From Clostridiales bacterium (GTDB taxonomy: Bacteria > Bacillota > Clostridia > Lachnospirales > WQUN01), in assembly GCA_031270945.1 (NCBI GenBank), contig JAISWZ010000621.1:1-64000 (forward strand): 64,000 nucleotides of DNA, given 5' to 3'. The notes under the pieces were generated by a model. That model made no database searches, was not told where the DNA came from, and saw only the letters and a program-made list of their open reading frames with translations. The position numbers and the translations under genes were made by a program. This document shows, piece after piece, positions 2,685 to 55,285 of this stretch (position 1 is its first letter; the number at the start of each line of letters is the position of its first letter).

Positions 2685-3674
2685 ATGAGAATTTTTGTTG
2701 TCGGCATATTTGCCATTTTACTTTCCATTGCGGTTTGCGCCTTTAGCTTGGCCATGCCGCGTTCCGCTAGCGCGGGCGTATATCAAGTCGCCCCCAGCGC
2801 CACCCCAAGCCCTGCGCCTAGCCCGACGGTCGCTCCAGCTCCGTCATTCGCTCCAATGAAGCCCAGCGCGATTCTTACGCCGAATTCGCCGACCCCGACT
2901 CCCGCTCCAACTGCCGAGCCAGAGCCGGTCGAGCCTGAGCCCACGGTTACTCCAACGCCTACACCTGAGCCGAGAACGCTTAAGAAGTTTCTTCAAATAG
3001 CGTTGCAGCCGGTTGGAACCACAATGTACATATATGGCGGCGGATGGAACGAGGACGATACCGCTGCGGGCCCTGAGGCTTTGACTATCGGGCTTAGCCA
3101 GCGCTGGATTGATTTCGCCAAGAAGCAGGACTCAACATACAACCACAGGATCCATCGTTACGAGATACATAACGGGCTGGACTGCACTGGCTTTATAGGC
3201 TGGGCTATCTTCAACCTGATGCCCAACAGCACCGGATATGTCTTCTGGTCTGACGGGTGCGCCAAATCCCTCTCTGACTACGGCTTAGGCTCATTCACCA
3301 AAAGGGCGAACGTAAAAGTCCACCAGACTGGAGACATAATGAGCACGGAAGGGCACGCCTGGATCTCCCTGGGAGAAGCAAGCGACAAAAGCGTGGTCAT
3401 TCTTCACGCCTCGCCTCCTGGCACAGCGTTATGGGGCACCCAGACCGGAAGCAAGACAAGCGGGGCGGCAAAGCTGGCTGACGAGTACATGGCCAAGTAC
3501 TTCCCCTCCTGGCACGCCAAGTATCCGCAAGTCGCAAAGACAGACAGAAAGTATGTTACCTCTTATGACCAATTCAAATGGGATCCGTCGATCCTGCCTG
3601 ACCCGGATGGATACCGGGAAATGCCCGTGGAAGACATGCTGAAAGACCTGTTCGAGGGCATGGAGCCGAAATAA
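2685..3674 (+). CDS. Secreted Pro/Thr-rich protein with NlpC/P60-like domain
   Basis: 329 aa. The N-terminus is a signal peptide or anchor (MRIFVVGIFAILLSIAVCAF, then SASAG as a possible cleavage site). Residues ~35-100 form a low-complexity Pro/Thr/Glu linker typical of wall-spanning proteins. The C-terminal domain has Cys167 in LDCTGFIGWA and His224 in EGHAWISLG, the arrangement of an NlpC/P60 or CHAP-type cysteine amidase/endopeptidase. It probably acts on peptidoglycan outside the membrane. The frame opens at 2637, but GGAGGA just before 2685 and the hydrophobic segment fix the start. The catalytic assignment rests on two motifs only, and no cell-wall binding module is recognised. Confidence 0.65.
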   Translation: MRIFVVGIFAILLSIAVCAFSLAMPRSASAGVYQVAPSATPSPAPSPTVAPAPSFAPMKPSAILTPNSPTPTPAPTAEPEPVEPEPTVTPTPTPEPRTLKKFLQIALQPVGTTMYIYGGGWNEDDTAAGPEALTIGLSQRWIDFAKKQDSTYNHRIHRYEIHNGLDCTGFIGWAIFNLMPNSTGYVFWSDGCAKSLSDYGLGSFTKRANVKVHQTGDIMSTEGHAWISLGEASDKSVVILHASPPGTALWGTQTGSKTSGAAKLADEYMAKYFPSWHAKYPQVAKTDRKYVTSYDQFKWDPSILPDPDGYREMPVEDMLKDLFEGMEPK

Positions 3675-3682
3675 TAAGCCTT

Positions 3683-3758
3683 GGCATATCCCAAATTTGC
3701 ACTTGCGGCTTGGAAAAGCCTTTCTGGCTTTTCCAAGCCAATCTATTCGGGATATGTT
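3683..3758. repeat. Variant CATATCCC palindromic element
   Basis: GGCATATCCCAAATTT and ATTCGGGATATG ends enclose a perfect inner stem GGCTTGGAAAAGCC / GGCTTTTCCAAGCC. It lies just after the NlpC/P60-like gene and may also act as a 3' hairpin. Confidence 0.7.
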
Positions 3759-3813
3759 GCATATTCCGAATTTCATGCAGTGGCGCCGCGAAAGCCATTG
3801 CGATGCTTCTAAA

Positions 3814-3912
3814 AGCATATCCCAAAATTATATCCGAGGCGCCGGAAAAATCCGGCGTTGAAGCATTCGCCAGGATTTTTCCGGCACCATTTCGGAATTT
3901 TGGGATATGCTC
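3814..3912. repeat. Full-length CATATCCC palindromic element
   Basis: Type-A copy: AGCATATCCCAAAATTATAT at the left, inner arms GCCGGAAAAATCCGGCG and GGATTTTTCCGGCACC around TTGAAGCATT, right end AATTTTGGGATATGCTCT. The whole 99 bp can fold into one long hairpin. A lone right end follows at about 3944-3959. Confidence 0.85.
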
Positions 3913-5254: not shown

Positions 5255-5360
5255 TTAGTGCATATCCCAAAATTAATCTTAGGGCTTGGAAAAGCCACGC
5301 GTTAAAGCATCGCATGCCTTTTCCGTCGCCACTTGCGGAATTTTGGGATATGCACTTAGT
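5255..5360. repeat. Full-length CATATCCC palindromic element
   Basis: Type-B copy, flanked by TTA on both sides (CTTA-GTGCATATCCC and GGGATATGCAC-TTA). It lies upstream of the response regulator gene. Confidence 0.85.
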
Positions 5361-6579: not shown

Positions 6580-6684
6580 TTAGTGCATATCCCAAAATTC
6601 CGAAATGGCACCGGAAAAATCCTGGCGAATGCTTCAACGCCGGATTTTTCCGGTGCCTCGGATATAATTTTGGGATATGCTCTT
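6580..6684. mobile_element. CATATCCC palindromic element with a known empty site
   Basis: Full type-A copy. The paralogous site in the second duplication (around 8346-8358) reads GCTTTTTACTTATCCAAAT without the element, whereas here the same sequence is split as ACTTA-element-TTATCC. This defines the ends GTGCATATCCC and GGGATATGCTC and a TTA (or CTTA) target duplication. Confidence 0.9.
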
Positions 6685-6697
6685 ATCCAAATTTTCG

Positions 6698-7825
6698 CTA
6701 CAGCTCTTGAGTATTGACACGAACATTTCTTTCCCTAGCCAACCATCTGGTGCCGCTTCCCAGGCCTTTTATGACAAAGTTGGCAATTGCGGCGCATATT
6801 AGTGAAATGACAAAGGCCAGCGAAATCTTTGCGGCCATTAGCAGCGCGAAGCCCCTGAAGAGTTCCTGCTGTTCAGGCCTGATGTTAATCGCCTTGATAA
6901 CCAGGCTATGCAAAACGTATGCAGTTGGAGTCAAGGCGGCTATGCGGTTTATGACGCGGCTTTTTATTTTCAGGCGACTAAAATACCTGAAAGTCAACAC
7001 AGCCGCAAGAATGACAAAGAAGTTGCTGTAAGGGGCGAATATGCCAATGTAAGACGAGAATGGATATGACACCTTAAAGCCTCTCAGTGGAGAAAGATAG
7101 ATGTATGGGCTTTTGTCTGAGCAATACAGGAAATTTATAAAGGCGCCGAACAATAGAATCAGTACCGGAAGCAATGGGCCTACTGCCTTCTCTGATGGAT
7201 GGATGCGCATGTACGCCCCTATGACGTACATGGTTATAAAGAGAGAAAGGTTTGACGAAAACCAGTCCGTGTTTATGAAAGTCACTCCCAGCATTATCTG
7301 AACTGTTACAATGCATGAATTGAACAGGAGCAAGACTGCGATAAGCCTTTTAAACATGGCTTTGTCCAACGCCTGGATCAGCAAGTTCAGAAATGGGGCT
7401 ACAAGAAGGAGCATCAGCAGCACTTGCACATACCAGATATGATAAAAGCCGCCATCTGATTTCAAGAACGATTTGACCATTGTCCAAAACGCCGTCAAAA
7501 GCCTTTCAGGCACGGGCTCGATGCTCTTGTTGGTCAAGACAATCCCGATATAGAAAAGAGGGGCGCATGCCGCCAGGGTTGCCAGAAGCTTTTTTGCCTG
7601 CCTGTATATCTTTTTCGCTTGGGACTTGCAGGTAAAGTAGCCTGTAATTATGACAAAGTTGCCTACGGCTATCCTTGAAAAGCTGTTGATCAGGTTTGCC
7701 AGCTGCCACTTGGGATCGTAGACGTCAAAGCTCAAGGAAAGGTAATAGCTGCTTGAATGGATTGAGCAAACCATCAGAAACATCAAAATGCGATCCAGCT
7801 CTATGCCTGTGTCTCTTTCAGGCAT
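6698..7825 (-). CDS. Acyltransferase 3 family membrane protein (copy 1)
   Basis: 375 aa with about ten hydrophobic helices, for example NFVIITGYFTC, VLLMLLLVAPFLNLLIQAL and SNLSLFITMYVIGAYM. An N-terminal Arg then His pair (ELDRILMFLMVCSIHSSSYY) matches the catalytic-site arrangement of acyl_transf_3 O-acyltransferases. These move acetyl or other acyl groups onto sugars of polysaccharides or peptidoglycan at the membrane. AGGAGG lies seven bases before the ATG. It converges on the glycosyltransferase. A near-identical paralogue lies immediately upstream (8363-9490). The acceptor substrate is unknown. Confidence 0.85.
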   Translation of the reverse strand: MPERDTGIELDRILMFLMVCSIHSSSYYLSLSFDVYDPKWQLANLINSFSRIAVGNFVIITGYFTCKSQAKKIYRQAKKLLATLAACAPLFYIGIVLTNKSIEPVPERLLTAFWTMVKSFLKSDGGFYHIWYVQVLLMLLLVAPFLNLLIQALDKAMFKRLIAVLLLFNSCIVTVQIMLGVTFINTDWFSSNLSLFITMYVIGAYMRIHPSEKAVGPLLPVLILLFGAFINFLYCSDKSPYIYLSPLRGFKVSYPFSSYIGIFAPYSNFFVILAAVLTFRYFSRLKIKSRVINRIAALTPTAYVLHSLVIKAINIRPEQQELFRGFALLMAAKISLAFVISLICAAIANFVIKGLGSGTRWLARERNVRVNTQEL

Positions 7826-8027
7826 TCAAACGCCTCCTAAGGCGGTGCTTTCCGCCCGGTTCTCTTTGGTTTAAAACTCCTGCGCTAAAAACAGGACGTT
7901 CAGGCCGCCGTTGTTTTGGCTAGCAGTCAGTGCCTAGATCTATTTTTCCATAAAATGAGTAAATTAGTCGTTTAGAGGATTAAATTTGTTTTGTTCACCA
8001 CCGCTAGCTTTGATGCGCCAAAAATCC

Positions 8028-8270: not shown

Positions 8271-8346
8271 AAAAGCGCAAGCGAAAACCTTTGGTTTTCG
8301 CTTGCGCTTTTAATTTAAGTTTTTTGGTTTTCGCTTGCGCTTTTTA
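8271..8346. terminator. Duplicated terminator-like hairpin
   Basis: Copy of the hairpin at 6536-6577 (8271-8311), followed by an extra direct repeat of its right arm, GGTTTTCGCTTGCGCTTTTT. Confidence 0.65.
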
Positions 8347-8362
8347 CTTATCCAAATTTTCG

Positions 8363-9490
8363 TTACAGCTCTTGAGTGTTAACACGAACATTTCTTTCCC
8401 TAACCAACCATCTGGCACCGCTTCCCAGGCCTTTTATGATGAAGTTGACAATGGCGGCGCATATTAGTGAAATGACAAAGGCCAGCGAAATCTTTGCGGC
8501 CATTAGCGGCGCGAAGCCCCTGAAGCGTTCCTGCTTGTCAGGGTGGATGTTAATCGCTTTGATGACCAGGCTATGCAGGACGTAAGCGGTTGGGGTCAAG
8601 GCGGCTATGCGGTTTATAGCGCGGCTTTTTATTTTCAAACTTCTAAAGTACCTGAAAGCCAACACTGCCGCAAGAATGACGAAGAAGTTGCTGTAAGGGG
8701 CGAATATGCCAACGTAAGACGAGAATGGATATGACACCTTAAAGCCTCTCAGTGGAGAAAGATAGATGTATGGACTTTTGTCTGAGCAATACAGGAAATT
8801 TATAAAGGTGCCGAACAATAGAACCAGTATCGGAGGCAATGGGCCTGCCGCCTTCTCTGATGGATGGATGCGCATGTACGCCCCTATGACGTACATGGTT
8901 ATAAAAAGCGAAAGGTTTGATGAAAACCAGTCCGTGTTTATGAAATTCACTCCCAGCATCATCTGAACCGTTGCAATGCATGAATTGAACAGGAGCAAGA
9001 CTGCTATAAGCCTTTTGAAGGCGGCTTTGTCCAGCGCCTGGATCAGCATGTTCAGAAATGGGGCGACAAGAAAGAGCATTAACAGCACTTGCACATACCA
9101 AATATGATAAAAGTCGCCGTTTGATTTCAAGAATGCTTTGACCATTGTCCAAAGCGCCGTCAAAAGCCTCTCAGGCACGGACTCGATGCGCTTGTTGGCC
9201 GAAATCGCCTCGATATAGAAAAGAGGGGCGCATGCCGCCAGGGTTGCCAGAAGCTTTTTTGCCTGCCCGTATATCTTTTTCGCTTGGGACTTGCAGGTAA
9301 AGTAGCCTGTAATTATGACAAAGCTGCCTACGGCTATCCTCGAAAAGCTGTTGATCAGGTTTGCCAGCTGCCACTTGGGATCGTAGACGTCAAAGCTCAA
9401 GGAAAGGTAGTAGCTGCTTGAATGGATTGAGCAAACCATTAGAAACATCAAAATGCGATCCAGCTCTATACCTGTGTCTCTTTCAGGCAT
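8363..9490 (-). CDS. Acyltransferase 3 family membrane protein (copy 2)
   Basis: 375 aa, the same length as its neighbour at 6698-7825 and nearly identical to it. The N-terminal 50 residues differ at one position (AVGNF/AVGSF). Differences cluster in the loop around residue 95 (IGIVLTNKSIEPVPER against IEAISANKRIESVPER) and near the C-terminus. The Arg/His pair and all helices are conserved and the frame is intact, so both copies may be active, possibly with different acceptors. The ribosome binding site AGGAGG is also duplicated. Confidence 0.85.
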   Translation of the reverse strand: MPERDTGIELDRILMFLMVCSIHSSSYYLSLSFDVYDPKWQLANLINSFSRIAVGSFVIITGYFTCKSQAKKIYGQAKKLLATLAACAPLFYIEAISANKRIESVPERLLTALWTMVKAFLKSNGDFYHIWYVQVLLMLFLVAPFLNMLIQALDKAAFKRLIAVLLLFNSCIATVQMMLGVNFINTDWFSSNLSLFITMYVIGAYMRIHPSEKAAGPLPPILVLLFGTFINFLYCSDKSPYIYLSPLRGFKVSYPFSSYVGIFAPYSNFFVILAAVLAFRYFRSLKIKSRAINRIAALTPTAYVLHSLVIKAINIHPDKQERFRGFAPLMAAKISLAFVISLICAAIVNFIIKGLGSGARWLVRERNVRVNTQEL

Positions 9491-9529
9491 TCAAACGCCT
9501 CCTAAGGCGGTGCTTTCCGCCCGGTTCTC

Positions 9530-9826
9530 TTATGTTTTGAAATAATTCTGCGTAACAACCACCGGGCAAATAGACGTAAATGGCTTAAACGCAAGATTTG
9601 TCCGTCACATCCGCCTTTAGAAAGCCTTGATTTTAGGGCCTTGATGGAGTTCTTACGGCAGAATCATTGAAATTCATATCCCAAATTTATTTACGTTTGC
9701 AAAAGTCCGGGGCAAGGGCATTACCAGGACTTTTGGGATATGCGCTCGCCATAATTATGGCATGAAGCCTTCACAATGTCAATGATTTAATGCCTTTGCT
9801 GCAGATTTCTGAAGTTTTAAGGGGAA
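9530..9826. repeat. Spacer with a degenerate CATATCCC element
   Basis: No gene is seen. Positions 9674-9747 hold a shortened palindromic element (TTCATATCCCAAATTT, a core with AAAAGTCC and GGACTTTT, TTTGGGATATGCGCTC). Confidence 0.65.
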
Positions 9827-11470: not shown

Positions 11471-11574
11471 GAAAATATCCCATATTTTGCAAAGGCTTGG
11501 ATCTGGACACGAACGCAGCAAAGCAGCGCCAGGACTTTCCCAAGCTTTCTTGGAATTTTGGGATATACACTAAG
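11471..11574. repeat. Diverged CATATCCC palindromic element
   Basis: Left end CTTAGAAAATATCCCATATT, right end GGAATTTTGGGATATACAC followed by TAAG. The inner stem is degenerate. It lies between the divergent DUF2207-like and carboxypeptidase genes. Confidence 0.7.
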
Positions 11575-21647: not shown

Positions 21648-21752
21648 AAGAGCATATCCCAAAATTATATCCGAGGTGCCGGAAAAATCCGGCGTTGAAG
21701 CATTCGCCAGGATTTTTCCGGCACCAATACGGAATTTTGGGATATGCACTAA
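21648..21752. repeat. Full-length CATATCCC palindromic element
   Basis: Type-A copy, flanked by TAA on both sides (CTAA-GAGCATATCCC and GGGATATGCAC-TAA). It is nearly identical to 55752-55858. Confidence 0.9.
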
Positions 21753-24114: not shown

Positions 24115-24674
24115 TACTGCGGAGTCTTGCCCTCTTTGGAGCAGCTGGCGCTGCCTCGAAAGGAAAGCTTCTCCTCTCGAACGGCCCAAGCCTAATCAAA
24201 GCATCCTCCTTGACCGCCGCGTCTCAGAAGAAACCTTGAAAGGCAATAGGCCTAGCATTGCCAACCGCCTGCCATCGAGGGCTTAACCTCCGCCCTAAAG
24301 GGAAAGCCTTCATCCCGCCATTCAAGGACAAGCAAAAAGCGCCATGCTTGCGGGCTTGCTCATAACACCCCGCTTGTCCAGCAAAGACATGGCAGAACTT
24401 GATTGAGGCAGCCGATGCAGCTAGCCGTCTCGCCCAATTTCCAGCCTCCATCCTGTTTAGGTGGCTCTACATGTGCACCAGTCAGGGATTAGCGCTTGAC
24501 GAGCGCTTGATGAACCCGGCTCTTTTGCTCTCGAGCGAAAACATCTATCAAGTTAATTTATAGTTTTCACTTGCAGGCAAACGCCGTCCAGAGTGAAAAG
24601 AACAGTTCTTTTCAATCACCGGCATGCTGCCGGACTCTGCCTCAGCGTAAAAGAAGCTATCTTGTCGCTCTCGG
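24115..24674. other. Gene-free spacer
   Basis: Several short open stretches exist on both strands, but none has a ribosome binding site or protein-like conservation. Possibly decayed coding sequence. Confidence 0.35.
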
Positions 24675-24740
24675 AGCGTATCCCAAAATTTATCTTAGGG
24701 CGCTGAAAAGCCACGCGTTAAAGCATCGCATGCTTTTTAA
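24675..24740. repeat. Truncated type-B CATATCCC element
   Basis: GAGCGTATCCCAAAATTTAT and the core AAAAGCCACGCGTTAAAGCAT are present, but the right half is replaced by the next element, as if that one inserted into it. Confidence 0.75.
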
Positions 24741-24873
24741 GAGCATATCCCAAAATTATATCCGAGGTGCCAGAAAAGTCCGGGTGTTTGCTCGCAGAAG
24801 CCCGAGCAAACTAGTTGAAGCATTCGCCAGGACTTTTCCGGCACCAATACGGAATTTTGGGATATGCACTAAG
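24738..24873. repeat. CATATCCC element carrying an inner hairpin
   Basis: Type-A copy in which the stem tip after AAAAGTCCGG is replaced by an extra hairpin with arms GTTTGCTCG and CGAGCAAAC around CAGAAGCC. The copy at 34811-34942 has the same insert in the opposite orientation. Confidence 0.85.
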
Positions 24874-25030: not shown

Positions 25031-25134
25031 TTTAGTGCATATCCCAAAATTCAAAAAAGGGCGCAGGAAAAGTCATGCGATGCTTTAACGCGTTACTTTT
25101 CCAAACCTTATAATAAATTTTGGGATATGCTCTT
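25031..25134. repeat. Full-length type-B CATATCCC element
   Basis: TTTAGTGCATATCCC to GGGATATGCTCTTG, core GGGCGCAGGAAAAGTCATGC / GCGTTACTTTTCC. Nearly identical to 43037-43138. Confidence 0.88.
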
Positions 25135-25286
25135 GGCAAGAATTCAAGCTCGCTTTTAGGACAGCCCAAATATCGCAAATGCTCTAAATTTTTCAGCCAA
25201 ATGATATCTTTTTGTTAAATCCGACAATACTAATAGTTAGAGCATGCGCTTGCAATTCACTTATTCAGCGTGAAAGGAGAAAATAT

Positions 25287-26261
25287 ATGGAATCAAAGAC
25301 CAAGGAAAAGATTGCGCTGTTTCGGTTTTCGATGATAGCTCCTGTCGTGAGCGGCACAATCAAAGCCTCAGCCGATGAGTATTTCAAAATGGCGGCCGAA
25401 TCGCCTCACCGGGATCTGGACGGAGAGATGACAAAGCCCACCTATGAAGAGCTCAAAGAATGGTTTGAGAGATATAGGAAAGATGGGCTTTCCGGCTTGT
25501 ACCCTTCCTACAAAGACAACACCGAGTCCACGGAGCTAAGCGCGGAAGTTGTCAATGCAATTCGCAAGATCAAGCTCCAGCATCCCCAAGCTACGGGAAC
25601 GCACATTTACGAAATGCTTTTGGAAAACGGGAACATAGACTCCAGCATTAAGTTAGGCGCTTTCTTGCGCTCTCTTAGGATTAACGACCTTAATGCCACA
25701 AGTCCGAACAAGGAACCGAAGGCTTTCGAGATGTCCAAGCCAAACGAATTGTGGCAGAGCGCGATCACTGCCGGCCCGAAGCTAGAAGACGATCAAATCG
25801 TTAGGCTGTACGCGATCCTTGATGACAACAGCAGAATGATAGTTGGAGCGAGGTACTTTTTGGGCTATGGCGATGACGCTGTCAAGCAGACGCTTCGAGA
25901 GGCCTTTCTCAACTGCGGCATCCCCCAATCGCTATCCTTGGGCAGCGACCCTGCCTGCGACAGCGAAGAGGTGGATGAGATCTGCGAAGCGCTTGACATA
26001 GAAGCCATTCACTGTTCCCGTATCGCTACCGGCAAAATAGGCAAGATCAAGCGGTTTTTCCGCACCCTCAACGACCGCTGGCTAACCAGCGTACCTACGC
26101 CTCCAGACTTGGACTCCTTGAACGCCGGGCTTGGCGAGTTCATCGAATTATACAACAACATAGTGCACAGCGGGACGAACATGACACCCAAGGCCCGCTG
26201 GACGAAATCGTCGCAGCGCATAAGGCGCTTGCCTCCGGAAAAAATTGAAAGCGCGTTTTAA
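25287..26261 (+). CDS. Transposase-like DDE integrase-core protein, catalytic residues replaced
   Basis: 324 aa. The architecture is that of Mu/IS481-like transposases: N-terminal helix-turn-helix region (EKIALFRFSMIAPVVSG, YEELKEWFERYRKDGLSGL), a second helical domain, then an RNase H-like core (PNELWQS, YAILDDNSRMIVGARY, GKIKRFFRTLNDRWL). In active relatives the triad lies in WQ(S/T)D, VDNG and GKIER. Here those positions read WQSA (Ala159), LGSD (Gly219) and GKIKR (Lys255), so all three appear lost although the frame is complete and AAAGGAG precedes the ATG. No terminal repeats flank it. It may be a domesticated DNA-binding protein; a recently decayed transposase is the alternative. Confidence 0.75.
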   Translation: MESKTKEKIALFRFSMIAPVVSGTIKASADEYFKMAAESPHRDLDGEMTKPTYEELKEWFERYRKDGLSGLYPSYKDNTESTELSAEVVNAIRKIKLQHPQATGTHIYEMLLENGNIDSSIKLGAFLRSLRINDLNATSPNKEPKAFEMSKPNELWQSAITAGPKLEDDQIVRLYAILDDNSRMIVGARYFLGYGDDAVKQTLREAFLNCGIPQSLSLGSDPACDSEEVDEICEALDIEAIHCSRIATGKIGKIKRFFRTLNDRWLTSVPTPPDLDSLNAGLGEFIELYNNIVHSGTNMTPKARWTKSSQRIRRLPPEKIESAF

Positions 26262-30619: not shown

Positions 30620-30698
30620 AGAGAGCATATCCAAATTTAGTTTCAGGGCTTACGAAAGTCACGCGTAGAAGCATTGCGATGACTTTCACTGCACCACT
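30620..30698. repeat. Partial type-B CATATCCC element
   Basis: AGAGCATATCCAAATTTAG and a core with GAAAGTCACGCG / GACTTTC. Its right end is replaced by the next copy. Confidence 0.75.
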
Positions 30699-30804
30699 TA
30701 GTGCATATCCCAAAATTCCGTATTGGTGCCGGAAAAGTCCTGGCGAATGCTTCAACGCCGGACTTTTCCGGCACCTCGGATATAATTTTGGGATATGCAC
30801 TTAA
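30698..30804. repeat. Full-length type-A CATATCCC element
   Basis: TTA on both flanks (CTTA-GTGCATATCCC and GGGATATGCAC-TTAAG), followed by a spare right end (TTTTGGGATATGCTC) to 30825. It lies in the gap between the solute-binding protein and permease genes of one operon. Confidence 0.9.
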
Positions 30805-32382: not shown

Positions 32383-32481
32383 TTTAATGCATATCCCAAA
32401 ATTCCGCGAAGGCGCAGAAAAAGTCATCGCGATGCTTTAACGCGTTACTTTTTCAAGCCATAAAATTGGGATATGCTTTTA
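32383..32481. repeat. Full-length type-B CATATCCC element
   Basis: TTTA-ATGCATATCCCAAAATT to ATTGGGATATGCTT-TTA, core GGCGCAGAAAAAGTCATCGC / GCGTTACTTTTTCAAGCC. It lies upstream of the binding-protein operon. Confidence 0.85.
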
Positions 32482-34810: not shown

Positions 34811-34942
34811 TGTGCATATCCCAAAATTCCGAAATGGCGCCGAAAAAATCCTGGCGACTGCTTAAACTAGTTTGCTCGGGCTTCTGCGAGCAAACATCCG
34901 GATTTTTTCGGCGCCTCGGATATAATTTTGGGATATGCTTTA
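34811..34942. repeat. CATATCCC element carrying an inner hairpin
   Basis: Type-A copy with the extra GTTTGCTCG / CGAGCAAAC hairpin at its tip, in reverse orientation to 24738-24873. Flanked by TAT on both sides (CTCTAT-GTGCAT and ATGCTT-TAT), so the target duplication is not always TTA. Confidence 0.88.
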
Positions 34943-37978: not shown

Positions 37979-38073
37979 GAGCATATCCCAAAATTAAATC
38001 CAGGCATGAAAAAGTCACGCTTGAAAGCAGTGCTGTGACCTTATGAAGCCTATCGTAATTTTGGGATAGCTCT
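37979..38073. repeat. CATATCCC element inside the ABC operon
   Basis: GGAGCATATCCCAAAATTAA to GTAATTTTGGGATAGCTC, type-B core. It sits between the binding-protein and first permease genes, the same position as the elements in the other ABC operon. Confidence 0.8.
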
Positions 38074-43037: not shown

Positions 43038-43138
43038 GAGCATATCCCAAAATTCAAAATAGGGCGCAGGAAAAGTCATGCGATGTTTCAACGCGTTACT
43101 TTTCCAAGCCTTATAATAAATTTTGGGATATGCTTTAA
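43037..43138. repeat. Full-length type-B CATATCCC element
   Basis: Begins at the pgmB stop codon: TTAA-GAGCATATCCC to GGGATATGCTT-TAAGG. Nearly identical to 25031-25134, suggesting recent spread. Confidence 0.9.
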
Positions 43139-46909: not shown

Positions 46910-47280
46910 TGCGCGCAAGTTCGAAACTATAACACGTGCGCTGGACATAGGCGGCGATAGCGAACCGCAAAATGAACCCCTCGAACTTCGTTCCCGCCAA
47001 GAGCAGCGCTTGATTTTAATCTCTGTGTACTTAACAATCTATGTTTTATTAAACAAAACACAGCCCGAATGGTTATGAGAGTTATCCGAAGAATCCGTGA
47101 GCCTGTCTCGCGCTTAGGGATGGCGGTGAGACCTTCGCAAAAGCGGCGCTCGATTTAAGTCTCTGTATGCTTAACATTTCATGTAATCGATGCATGAAAT
47201 CAGTTTTGCAATTTCTACGCATTGGCACCGCTCGGCAAACGGCTCAGTGTATACTCTGCCACAGTACAGGCCAGGTTCCT
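46910..47280. other. Lead-in to the repeat array
   Basis: No gene is seen. Two diverged copies of a ~144-bp unit can be seen through the motif GCGCT(T/C)GATTTNA with TCTCTGT near 47007 and 47151, suggesting older array units. Confidence 0.4.
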
Positions 47281-48010
47281 GGCTCCTTCCTCGCCTAGCA
47301 TTCAACTTTGAGAGCCTTAAGCACCCTGAGTTCGGTCGCACCGCTGCGCACTGGAAGAATTTCACTTCCAGCTTTAAAGTGCACAAAAAGCACAGAAAGA
47401 GCTTTGCCACCCCCACGCGATGAGATTTCTTGCTCCTTCATTGACTAGCATTCAATTAGGGAGCCTTAAGCACCCTGAGTTCGGCCGCACCGCTGCGCAC
47501 TGGAAGAATTTCACTTCCAGCTTCAAGTGCAAAAAAGCACAGAAAGAGCTTTGCCTCCCACACACGATGAGGTTTCTTGCTCCTTCCTCGCCTAGCGTTC
47601 TACTAAGAAAACCTTAAGTGCCCTGTTTTGCCCGCACCGCTGCGCACTGGAAGAATTTCACTTCCAGCTTTAAAGCGCAAAAAAGCACAGAAAGAGCTTA
47701 GCCGCCCCACGCGATGAGGTTTCTTGCTCCTTCCTCGCCTAGCTTTCAACTTAGAGAGCCTTAATCACCCTGAGTTCGGCCGCACCGTTGCGCACTGGAA
47801 GAATTTCACTTCCAGCTTTAAGTGAAAAAAAGCGCAGAAAGAGCTTTGCCGCCCACACGCGATGAGATTTCTGACTCGTTCCTTGACTAGCATTCAACTT
47901 AAAGAGCCTTAAGCACACTGAGTTCGGCCGCACCGCTGCGCACTGGAAGAAATTCACTTCCAGCTTTAAGTGCAAAAAAGCACAGAAAAAGCTTAGCCGC
48001 CCCACGCGAT
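47281..48010. repeat. Type I tandem array, five units of ~148 bp
   Basis: Units start with GCTCCTTCCTCGCCTAGC. The motif GCGCACTGGAAGAA recurs at 47346, 47494, 47642, 47790 and 47938, exactly 148 bases apart. Each unit has a hairpin with arms CTGGAAG and CTTCCAG, then GTGCAAAAAAGCAC. Substitutions and one-base indels between units destroy any common reading frame, so it is non-coding. Confidence 0.95.
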
Positions 48011-48225
48011 TGACGCCCGACAAGCCAATGTGTCACCTGGATCTAATTTCAAGATAAATCAATATTTCGACACTCAACATGCGCCCAGATTCTGCTGATC
48101 CTTTGGCTTCTCTGGCGCAAAACCGCATTCATCGAACTTCTTGAATCCCCATAATGCGCGGATGGGTCTTTCAATAGTCGGCATTGTTCAGCGAGACGGC
48201 CTTGGTGGTTGGCTCTTTGAGTAAC
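48011..48225. repeat. Interspersed segment S, copy 1
   Basis: Starts TTGACGCCCGACAAGCC, contains ATAAATCAATATTTCGACA (the end motif of the 134-bp MITE) and ends TTGTTCAGCGAGACGGCC before passing into type II units. Copies 2 and 3 are nearly identical. Confidence 0.9.
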
Positions 48226-49361
48226 GTCAAACCCAGCAAGCCTAAACCGCCGAAGTTTTCATCGGATCTTCCTCCGTGTGCCCGCACCGTTTTGGCAAGA
48301 ACAGTTGTATTTCTAGCTTGAGTATTCAGCGGTAGCCTTTGTAGTTCGCTCTTATGGCAACAGTAAACCTATCAAGCCTAAACCTCCTTAAGCTTTCATA
48401 GTATCTTCCTCAGTCCACCCGCACCGCTTTGGACAAGAACAATTGTATTCCCAACTTCAGAACGCGCGGCAACAACCTCCGTTTTGGCTCTTGGAGTAAC
48501 GTCAAGCCCAGCAATCCCAAACCGCTAACACTTTCATGGCATCTTCTTCTCCATCCCGCCCGCACCGCTTTGGACAAGAATAATTCTCTTCCCAACTTTA
48601 GAGTGCACAGCAACAGCCGTTGTAGTTGGCTCTTGGGGCAACGTCAGACTTATGCAAGCCAAACCGCTCAAGTTTTCACTGTAGCATTCTCAGCTCATCC
48701 GCACCGCTTTGGACAAGAATAATATCGTTCCAATTCTCCAAGCGTTGAAAAATGGCTCTTTCAATTTTCAGCGAGACGGCCTCGGTGGTTGGCTCTTTGA
48801 GTAACGTCAAACCCAACAAGCCTAAACCTCTTTAAGCTTTCATAGCATCTTCCTCAGTCCCACCCTCACCGCTTTGGACAAGAAAATTGTCTTTCCAACT
48901 TTAGAACGCGCGGCCAGCCTCTGCTTTGGCTATTGGCGCAACTTCAAATCCAGCAAGCCTAACTGCCTAAGAGTTCATGTCATCTTCCTCAGATTACCCT
49001 TACTGCTTTGGACAAGAACAGTTGGCTTCCCAACTTTAGAACGCACTAAAACCTTATGGGTTGGCTCTTGGAGTAACGTCAAACCCCAGCAAGCCAAACC
49101 CGCTTATGTTTTCATCGCATCTTTATCAGCTCGTCTGCACCGCTTTGGACAAAAACAGTTGTCATTGCAATTTTAGAATTCACAGCTAAGGCCTTCATGG
49201 TTGGCACTTGGGGCAACCTCAAACCCGGCAAGCCTAACTGCCCAATTATTCATGTCAACTTCCTCAGCCGCCCGCACCACTTTGGACAAGAATAATATCG
49301 TCCCAATTCTGCATGCGTTGAAAAATGGCTCTTTCAATTTTAGCATCGCAAAAAGCCTGTG

Positions 49362-49570
49362 ACATCCGACAAGCCAACCTGCCATCTGGATCTAATTTCA
49401 AGATAAATCAATATTTCGACACTCAACATGCGCCCAGATTCTGCTGATTCTTTGGCTTCTCTGGCGCAAGACCGCATTCATCGAACTTCTTGAATCCCCA
49501 TAATGCGCGGATGGGTCTTTCAATAGTCGGCTTTGTTCAGCGAGACGGCCTTGGTGGTTAGCTCTTGGAG
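49362..49570. repeat. Interspersed segment S, copy 2
   Basis: Same as 48011-48225, including the TATTTCGACA motif. Preceded by AAAAATGGCTCTTTCAATTT and GCATCGCAAAAAGCC, which also precede copy 3. Confidence 0.9.
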
Positions 49571-50000
49571 TAACGTCAAACCCAGCAGCACCAAACCGCG
49601 TATATTTTCACGACATCTTCATCTCCAGCCAGCCCGCCCGCATCGCTTTGACAAGAATAATATCGTGCCAATTTTATTTTGTTCAGCGAGACGGCCTTGG
49701 TGGTTGGCTCTTAGAGTAACGTCAAACCCAGCAAGCCTAAACTCTTTAAGCTTTCAAAGCATCTTACTCAGTCCACCCGCACCGCTTTGGACAAGAAAAT
49801 TGTCTTTCCAACTTTAGAACGCGCGGCGACAGCCTCTGCTTTGGCTATTGGCGAAACTTTAAACCCAGCAAGCCCAACTGCCTAATTGTTCATGGCATCT
49901 TCCTCAGCCCGCCCGCACCGCTTTGGACAAGAATAACATCGTTCCAATTCTCCACGCGTTGAAAAATGGCTCTTTCAATTTTAGCATCGCAAAAAGCCTG

Positions 50001-50210
50001 TGACGCCCGACAAGCCAATCTATCACCTGGATCTAATTTCAAGATAAATCAATATTTCGACATTCAACATGCGCCCAGATTCTGCTGATCCTTTGGCTTC
50101 TCTGGCGCAAAACCTCATTCATCGAACTTCTTGAATCCCCATAATGCGCGGATGGGTCTTTCAATAGTCGGCATTGTTCAGCGAGACGGCCTTTGTGGTT
50201 GGCTCTTGGA
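50001..50210. repeat. Interspersed segment S, copy 3
   Basis: Same as the other two copies. Copies 2 and 3 with their shared lead-in mark a ~640-bp higher-order repeat. Confidence 0.9.
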
Positions 50211-52605
50211 GTAACGTCAAACCCAGCAAGCCTAACACGCGCATGTTTTCATGGCATCTTCCTCAGCCCACCCGCACCGCTTTGGACAAGAAACATAGTC
50301 TTCCCAACTTTAGAATGTTCAGCTAGCCTTTGTAGTTGGCTCTTGGGCAGAGGCAAACCCAGGTCTTTGTGAAACCTCAAATCCAGCAAGCCTAAACCGC
50401 GTATATTTTCAAGGCATCTTCATCTCCAGCCCTCCCGCACCGCTTTGGACAAGAATTATTCTCTTCCCAACTTTAGAGTGCACAGCAATAGCCTTTGTAG
50501 TTGGCTCTTGGGGCAACAGCAAATCCAGCAAGCTTAAACCGTTCATGTTTTCGTGGCTTCTTCCTCAGTACGCCCGCACCTCTTTGGACAAGAAAATTGT
50601 CTTTCCAGCTTTAGAACGCGCGGCGACATCCTCTGCTTTGGCTCTTGGGGCAACGTCAGACTTATGCAAGCCAAACCGCCCAAGTTTTCACTGTAGCATT
50701 CACAGCTCACCCGCACCGCTTTGGATAAAGAATGGTTGGCATTCCGTAAGTAACCGCAACTCCAGCAAGCTTAAACCGTTCATGGTTTCATTGCATCTTC
50801 CTGAGCTCATCCGCACTGCTTTGGACAAGATAATTGTCTTTCCAACCTTAGAACGCGCGGCGACATCCTCTGCTTTGGCTTTTGGAGTAACGTCAAACCC
50901 AGCAAGCCTAACTGCCTAAGTGTTCATTGCATCTTCCTCAGCTCACCGCCCTCACCGCTTTGGACATGAAAAATAGTCTTCCCAACTTTAGAATGATCAG
51001 CTACAGCCTTTGAAGTTGCTCTTGGGGCAGCGGCAAACCCAGGTCTTTGTGAAACCTCAATCCAGCAACCTCAAACCTCGTATATATTCATAGCATCTTC
51101 ATCTCCAGCTCGCCCGCACCGCTTTGGACAAGAATAATTGTCTGGCCAATTTAGAGCGCGTTGCGAGAGTCTCTGTTTGGCTCTTGAGGCAACGTCAAAG
51201 CCAGCAAGCCCAAACTTCCTAAATGTTCATCGCATCTTCCTCAGCCCGCCCGCACCGCTTTGGACAAGAATAGTTGTATTTCCCGCTTTAGTGGTCAGCG
51301 GTAGCCTTTGTGATTGGCTCTTGGGGCAACGTCAAAGCCAGCAAGCCCAAACCCCTTAAATGTTCATCGCATCTTCCTCAGCCCGCCCATACCGCCTTGG
51401 ACAAGAAAATTTGTCTTTCCAACTTCAGAACGCGCGGTGACAGCCTCTTCTTTGGCTAGTGGCGCAACTTCAAACCCAGCAAGCCTAACTGCCTAAGTGT
51501 TCATGTCATCTTCCTCAGATTACCCTTACTGCTTTGGACAAGAACAGTTGTCTTCCCAACTTTAGACCGCACTAAAGCCTTTTTAGTTGGCTCTTGAGGC
51601 AACGTCAAAGTCTGCAAGCCCAACTGCCTAATTGTTCATGGCATCTTCCTCAGCACGCCCGCACCGCTTTGGACAAGAAAAATTGTCTTTCCAATTTTAA
51701 AGTGCATAGCAACATCCTCTGCTTTGGCTCTTGGAGTAACGTCAAACCCAGCAAGCCTAACTGCCTAATGTTCATTGCATCTTCCTCAGCCCGCCCGCAC
51801 CGCTTTGGAGAAGAACAATTGTCTTTCCAACTTCAGAACGCGCGGTGACAGCCTCTTCTTTGGCTATCGGGGCAACCTCAAACCCAGCAAGCCTAAACCT
51901 CTTTAAGCTTTCATAGTATCTCCCTCAGCCCGCCCGCACCGCTTTGGACATGAAAATTTGACTTCCCAACTTTAGAAAGTTCAACGACGGCCTTGGTGGT
52001 CGGCACTTGAGGCAACCTCAAACCCAGCCAACACAAGCGCGTATAGTTTCACGGCATCTTCATCTCCAGCCCGCCCGCACCGCTTTGGACAAGAACAATT
52101 GTCTTCCAATTTTAGAAATCGCGACAACAACCTCTCTTTTGGCTATTGGGGCAACCTCATACCCAGCAAGCCTTAACCGCGTATATTTTCTAGGCATCTT
52201 CGTCTCCAGCCCGCACAGCTTTGGACAAGAACAGTTGTCCTCCCAACTTTAGAACGCACTAAATCCTTCATGGTTGGCTATTGAGGCAACGTCAAAGCCT
52301 ACAAGCCTAAACTTCCTAAATGTTCATCGCATCTTCCTCAGCCCGCCCGCACCGCTTTGGACAAGAGCAATAGTTTTTCCAATCTTAGAACGCGCGGCGG
52401 CATCCTCTGCTTTGGCTCTTTTAGTAACGTCAAACCCAGCAAGTCCAAACAGCCTAAGTGTTCATAGTATCTTCCTCAGTCTGCCCGCGCCGCTATCCAT
52501 ACACCTTTGAGATTTTATTCTTAACTTCTACATCGATCCAAGCTTCCGAAAATATGTTCGGATTTTGCATCATATTACATGTTCATGTCATCTCTGAGAA
52601 TCGTA

Positions 52606-54670: not shown

Positions 54671-55285
54671 TTCAAATGCATCAGCTCCTTTTGCTTGAAA
54701 CCACAATAACTGCTCCGCTATCCACTCCTTTCAATTCTCACTTCCAGCAACTTCAAGACTCCAATGCACCGGTTCCTTTTGCTTGAAGCCATTTTAACAG
54801 CTCCACTATCCACCCCCTGTAATTCTCACTTCCAGCAGCTTTAGACTCCAGTGCGTTAGTTCCTTTTGCCTGAAGCCATTATAACCCCTCCTCCATCCAC
54901 CCCCTTCAATTCTCGCTTCCAGCAACTTTAAGACTCCAATGCGCCGGTTCCTTTTGCTTGAAGCCATTATACCAGCGCTGCTATCCACCCCCTTCAATTG
55001 TAACTTCCAGCAGCTTTAAGGCTCCAATGCATCAGCTCCTTTTGCTTGAAACCATAATAACTGCTCCGCTATCCACTCCCTCCAGTTCTCACTTCCAATA
55101 GCTTTAAGACTCCAATGCGTCGGTTCCCTTTGCTTAAAGCCATTATAGCAACTCCTCCATCCGCCCCTGTAATGTTCTTTTCCATCTTTAAACTCCAGTG
55201 CGTTAGTTCCTTTTGCCTGAAACCATTATAACCCCTCCTCCACCAACCCCCTGTAATTTTCTTTTCCATCGACCGCTCCGCTTTC
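54671..55285. repeat. Type III tandem array, seven units of ~87 bp
   Basis: The motif CCA(A/G)TGC(A/G) recurs at about 54676, 54763, 54849, 54937, 55025, 55114 and 55197. Units read TCCACCCCCTTCAATTCT, CACTTCCAGCAGCTTTAAG, ACTCCAATGCGCC, GGTTCCTTTTGCTTGAAGCC and ATTATAAC. The last units shorten. CACTTCCAGC(AG)CTTTAA also occurs in type I units, so the arrays are probably related. Confidence 0.92.

Follow-up and report, generated by a model that had tools for sequence, protein, structure and literature searches.

The insertion and its uninterrupted counterpart

The window, meaning the whole 64,000-nucleotide stretch analysed here (contig C590:1-64000), belongs to an assembly of 8.82 Mb in 725 contigs that is 76% complete. 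Beside the index copy of a short palindromic element lies an acyltransferase gene that is duplicated (6682-7876 vs 8347-9542, 92.7% identical), and the features that matter at this locus are the following (strand is given where one was assigned).

6583..6682, + strand: index MITE copy, 100 bp, GTGCATATCCC...GGGATATGCTC
6580..6582: TTA target-site duplication, left
6683..6685: TTA target-site duplication, right
8339..8353, + strand: target site without insertion, second duplication copy, GCTTTTTACTTATCC

An earlier note on this DNA had held that comparison of the two copies gives exact ends and a TTA duplication, and both were borne out, as the GTGCATATCCC and GGGATATGCTC ends stand directly between the two TTA triplets. 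The uninterrupted site that it placed in copy 2 is also real and adjoins the second acyltransferase gene, with exactness limited to the 15 bases over the junction. The full flank does not align simply one to one, as copy 2 repeats part of the nearby terminator-like hairpin once more immediately before the empty site. Four other copies match the index element at every one of its 100 bp.

Copies within the window

The sequence GCATATCCC occurred 40 times in the window compared to 0.30 expected from shuffling, and a search with a profile built from 116 copies returned 21 copies, about a dozen of them close to full length, in agreement with the more than 20 copies per 64 kb claimed earlier. Most are intergenic. 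The flank duplications listed in the earlier note (TTA, TAA or TAT, according to the copy) hold for all seven of its copies, as entered below.

3813..3912, - strand: full-length MITE copy
5258..5355, - strand: MITE copy, TTA/TTA
11475..11570: decayed MITE copy (profile search)
21650..21749, - strand: MITE copy, TAA/TAA
24012..24110, - strand: MITE copy, TAA/TAA
24741..24869: 129-bp MITE copy with additional inner hairpin, nested in copy 24674-24738
25035..25132, + strand: MITE copy
30701..30800, + strand: MITE copy, TTA/TTA, nested in copy 30623-30698 that continues to 30821
32387..32478: shortened MITE copy
34812..34940: 129-bp MITE copy with additional inner hairpin, TAT/TAT
37979..38068: decayed MITE copy (profile search)
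43038..43135, + strand: MITE copy, TAA/TAA
55755..55854, - strand: MITE copy, TAA/TAA
59402..59482: shortened MITE copy

No transposase with matching ends was found in the 64-kb window, as the earlier note had also observed. The single transposase-like gene there (25212-26261) matches IS481 below the family threshold (112.8 bits against a cut-off of 224); its final catalytic Glu, inspected by eye, is apparently Lys, and its product is possibly inactive or domesticated.

Target site and duplication

Duplications were analysed in 188 well-formed copies, 101 of which carried the same three bases on both flanks. The flank pairs TTA/TTA (46) and TAA/TAA (45) greatly outnumbered TTA/TAA (5) and TAA/TTA (1), that is, 91 matched vs 6 mixed (Fisher p = 9e-21), and the first 99 copies alone gave the same picture. 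The exact duplication was missing in 87 of the 188 copies, most likely through decay. The target has the symmetric form Y-TWA-R, C and G being the preferred outer bases (C-TWA-G). A longer PIF-like target, CWCTTAGWG, was rejected, as dropping the flanks that contain other copies leaves information in C-TWA-G only. The terminal inverted repeat GWGCATATCCCAAAATT is present at both ends; in most elements the two ends are GT and GA, and the orientation of the duplication's middle base follows theirs 40 to 16 (p = 0.002 in a post hoc comparison).

The 3-bp TNA/TWA duplication expected of an IS5-derived element is therefore what is present here. The earlier note had also considered a TA-targeting Tc1/mariner or IS630-like enzyme, from which a 2-bp TA duplication is expected, and every target does contain TA. 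A TA duplication would not, however, produce TTA/TTA and TAA/TAA flanks that match so strictly, and it is removal of the element together with 3 bp that reproduces the uninterrupted sites. This alternative fails because the duplicated unit is TWA and 3 bp long, and we consider it very improbable. A RAYT-type (IS200/IS605-like) Y1 enzyme acting on a REP/REPIN-like element is still more improbable. The elements do resemble REPINs in being short, high-copy palindromes that lie mostly outside genes, but REP/REPIN-like elements are not known to create target-site duplications, and the strict 3-bp duplication of the present family separates the two as well as setting it apart from IS200/IS605 elements.

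Uninterrupted target sites elsewhere in the genome

For each copy with a duplication the two flanks were joined, and gapless matches across the junction were sought in a sample of about 1.59 Mb of the assembly, drawn partly from contigs already known to contain matches. Uninterrupted targets outside the family were recovered for eight elements, comprising the index element and those listed here.

L026 19462: in a coding repeat that has three intact paralogues
L036 8675: in an unrelated dispersed repeat of which five copies are intact
L063 2240
L152 8718
L152 9062
L162 9782
L189 9756: shorter matches

Five further elements were inserted inside other family copies; two of these, at 24741 and 30701, belong to the window. 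The evidence from uninterrupted or polymorphic sites thus consists of paralogous sites within one genome. Precise loss could account for one empty site but not for the whole set.

Copy number, placement and host range

The genome-wide search for the ends that the earlier note had suggested gave 764 exact matches to GTGCATATCCC in the assembly vs 2 for the reversed control, and 1,640 to the 15-mer GCATATCCCAAAATT vs 0 for its control. In the 1.59-Mb sample the profile produced 306 merged matches covering 1.8% of bases, which scales directly to approximately 1,700 copies genome-wide; because the sample is moderately end-rich (334 15-mers vs 295 by share), this figure was lowered, and the 8.8-Mb genome holds about 1,500 copies, decayed ones included and amounting to about 1.8% of its DNA, as an estimate rather than a census. 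Copy lengths peak at 98-100 and 129 bp with no transposase gene inside, and nine copies in the sample have an identical 96-bp core. Only 19 of 188 copies lay in predicted genes vs 136 expected at random, using a crude longest-ORF gene call.

Outside this genome the family was nearly absent. A same-genus genome had no match to the 15-mer GCATATCCCAAAATT. Among 59 further relatives and roughly 390 genomes from the class there were isolated 15-mer matches only, unpaired where inspected, and the plasmid and phage collections had none. Matches in other genomes and in viral contigs were single and unpaired and were set aside. A single syntenic stretch was compared, and there the same-genus genome was without the MITE copies, although its intergenic DNA is too diverged for base-by-base empty sites. 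Taken together, the strict 3-bp duplication, the 12 further uninterrupted targets, the near-absence elsewhere and the identical copies at different sites support the mobility of the hairpin element that the earlier note had proposed, as far as comparison of sequences can indicate it.

An end of a copy was found within 200 bases of 23 of the 230 contig ends examined. Mostly these were the longer forms, and longer copies therefore probably help to fragment the assembly. Such longer variants (L037, L054, L060 and L070, at contig ends and in inner parts) bear additional short hairpins, GTTTGCTCG...CGAGCAAAC and GCGTTTGCCC...GGGCAAATCGC, within the loop or the arms.

Hairpin structure and changes in the stem arms

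Folding of the element gives -62 to -63 kcal/mol on either strand, with a z of about -12. Among 50 distinct group I copies, 51 cells had changed on both sides vs 10.5 in shuffles, a count that is inflated by the relatedness of the copies; the two-sided changes fell on six pairs (3.9 in shuffles), each of them part of the inner stem, and the terminal repeats were nearly invariant. Paired arm changes also occurred in a second subfamily (GCG/CGC, GTG/CAC and GCA/TGC). Single-arm intermediates were G.U at 15 pairs (29 cells) and A.C at 13 (14 cells). Selection on one RNA strand was considered and rejected, as these wobble intermediates are not clearly strand-biased. The joint arm changes may come from between-arm copying during replication or from a requirement for a DNA hairpin, and because relatedness inflates the counts they are suggestive only. 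The coordinated change nevertheless constitutes a natural data set on how palindromes stay symmetric.

These structural features bear on the possibility that the palindromes are host-made terminators or RNA hairpins spread by recombination, with the empty site arising by precise loss or gene conversion. The strong hairpin, the mostly intergenic placement and the joint change of the stem arms would all fit such an origin, but the direct TWA duplications, the copies lying within each other and within unrelated repeats that have intact counterparts, the wobble intermediates without clear strand bias and an Rfam search of the window that gave no match argue against it, and we judge it highly improbable. 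It is also doubtful, although less so, that spread itself depends on the near-full-length hairpin, in an element that has DDE-type target duplications and would move via cruciform extrusion or folding of a single strand. If true, this would explain both the joint arm changes without clear strand bias and the inner hairpins of the longer variants.

Assignment of the family and the candidate transposases

By its size, ends, duplication and uninterrupted sites the element is classed from sequence as a MITE, and the family is a new one of this known kind. Very probably it is a gene-less MITE moved in trans by a transposase that recognises GWGCATATCCCAAAATT and inserts at C-TWA-G with a 3-bp duplication. 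Such an enzyme would bind the GWGCATATCCCAAAATT ends and make a 3-bp staggered cut at C-TWA-G, leaving TTA or TAA on both sides of the inserted element; it would be a DDE transposase of IS5 type, a relative of PIF/Harbinger, with an autonomous source that may be absent from the incomplete assembly or lost. Membership in the IS5-derived group is likely, its proof depending on the partner.

TNA/TWA targets are known for subgroups of IS5 elements. A TWA duplication is characteristic of PIF/Harbinger and C|TNA|G is the preference of NuwaII, both in the PHIS superfamily, which has bacterial IS5 elements as relatives (PMC4482050). The eukaryotic PIF/Harbinger and NuwaII MITEs accordingly share the 3-bp TWA duplication with the present family, but they have eukaryotic hosts and other ends, whereas this MITE resides in a bacterium. 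The bacterial MITEs Correia, Chunjie and ERIC are likewise short, gene-less and mostly intergenic, with inverted ends and many copies, but their end sequences are different. With an estimated 1,500 copies the family exceeds the prokaryotic examples of a review that is not a full survey, in which Correia is quoted at >120 copies and ERIC at 711 in Photorhabdus luminescens (PMC10969869). It offers a clear example of a very small element without genes that occupies about 1.8% of the genome of its bacterial host inside a single lineage, and it supplies its own before-and-after sites.

One intact IS5-type transposase was found in the genome (NF033580, 198 bits, contig C166). It belongs to an IS of 1,384 bp with a 263-aa transposase, GAGCCTGTTTAAAATC ends and a TTA/TTA duplication, and therefore the same target chemistry exists in this genome. 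That this enzyme moves the elements despite its differing ends is unlikely, even though no other intact IS5-type gene was found and the enzyme's IS resides in the same genome and shares with the MITE a TWA duplication and the first four end bases, GAGC. Past GAGC the ends diverge (GAGCCTGTTTAAAATC vs GWGCATATCCCAAAATT), and the C166 IS already has three internally deleted derivatives of 857-966 bp with TAA/TAA flanks and its own type of ends. The MITE is in addition unlike it in length and in having no transposase of its own.

The earlier note had also suggested searching for an IS with the same terminal repeats, and none was found: neither a gene between GWGCATATCCC ends nor an IS5-type gene with such ends turned up in this assembly (76% complete) or among the relatives covered by the search, and the genome gave no PIF-type (PF13359) transposase. 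An autonomous partner is common for MITEs yet is often lost, so that a missing partner does not exclude membership. Multi-copy IS are also frequently missing from such assemblies, and with this degree of completeness and with copies near contig ends the absence of the partner is weak evidence.

Several other candidates were rejected. For an OrfA fragment on contig C309, the right ends found nearby are those of separate short copies, and its outside relative (L133) has ends like those of the C166 IS. The other PF01609 transposases of the genome had no matching ends. A 767-bp element in L099 with MITE ends on both sides is a copy split by a 666-bp piece and has no transposase ORF; this piece (L099 1214-1879) is without a clear gene, single-copy in the sample and without an Rfam match, and a group II intron lies near it at 3617-3762.

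Other repeats in the window

Another family of dispersed repeats, roughly 130 bp long and with inverted ends assigned by eye as GATTCTGCCGTAA / TTACGGCAGAATC, is represented at 9545-9667 of the window and elsewhere at L037 11618-11745, L040 12089-12217 and L022 6351-6607; its copy in L036 carries a MITE insertion. Long intergenic tandem arrays occupy 47273-52494 and 54675-55258 of the window, their units measuring about 137-148 bp and 88 bp, and six genes of approximately 530-580 aa between 43442 and 62851 resemble alternating paralogues of two types.
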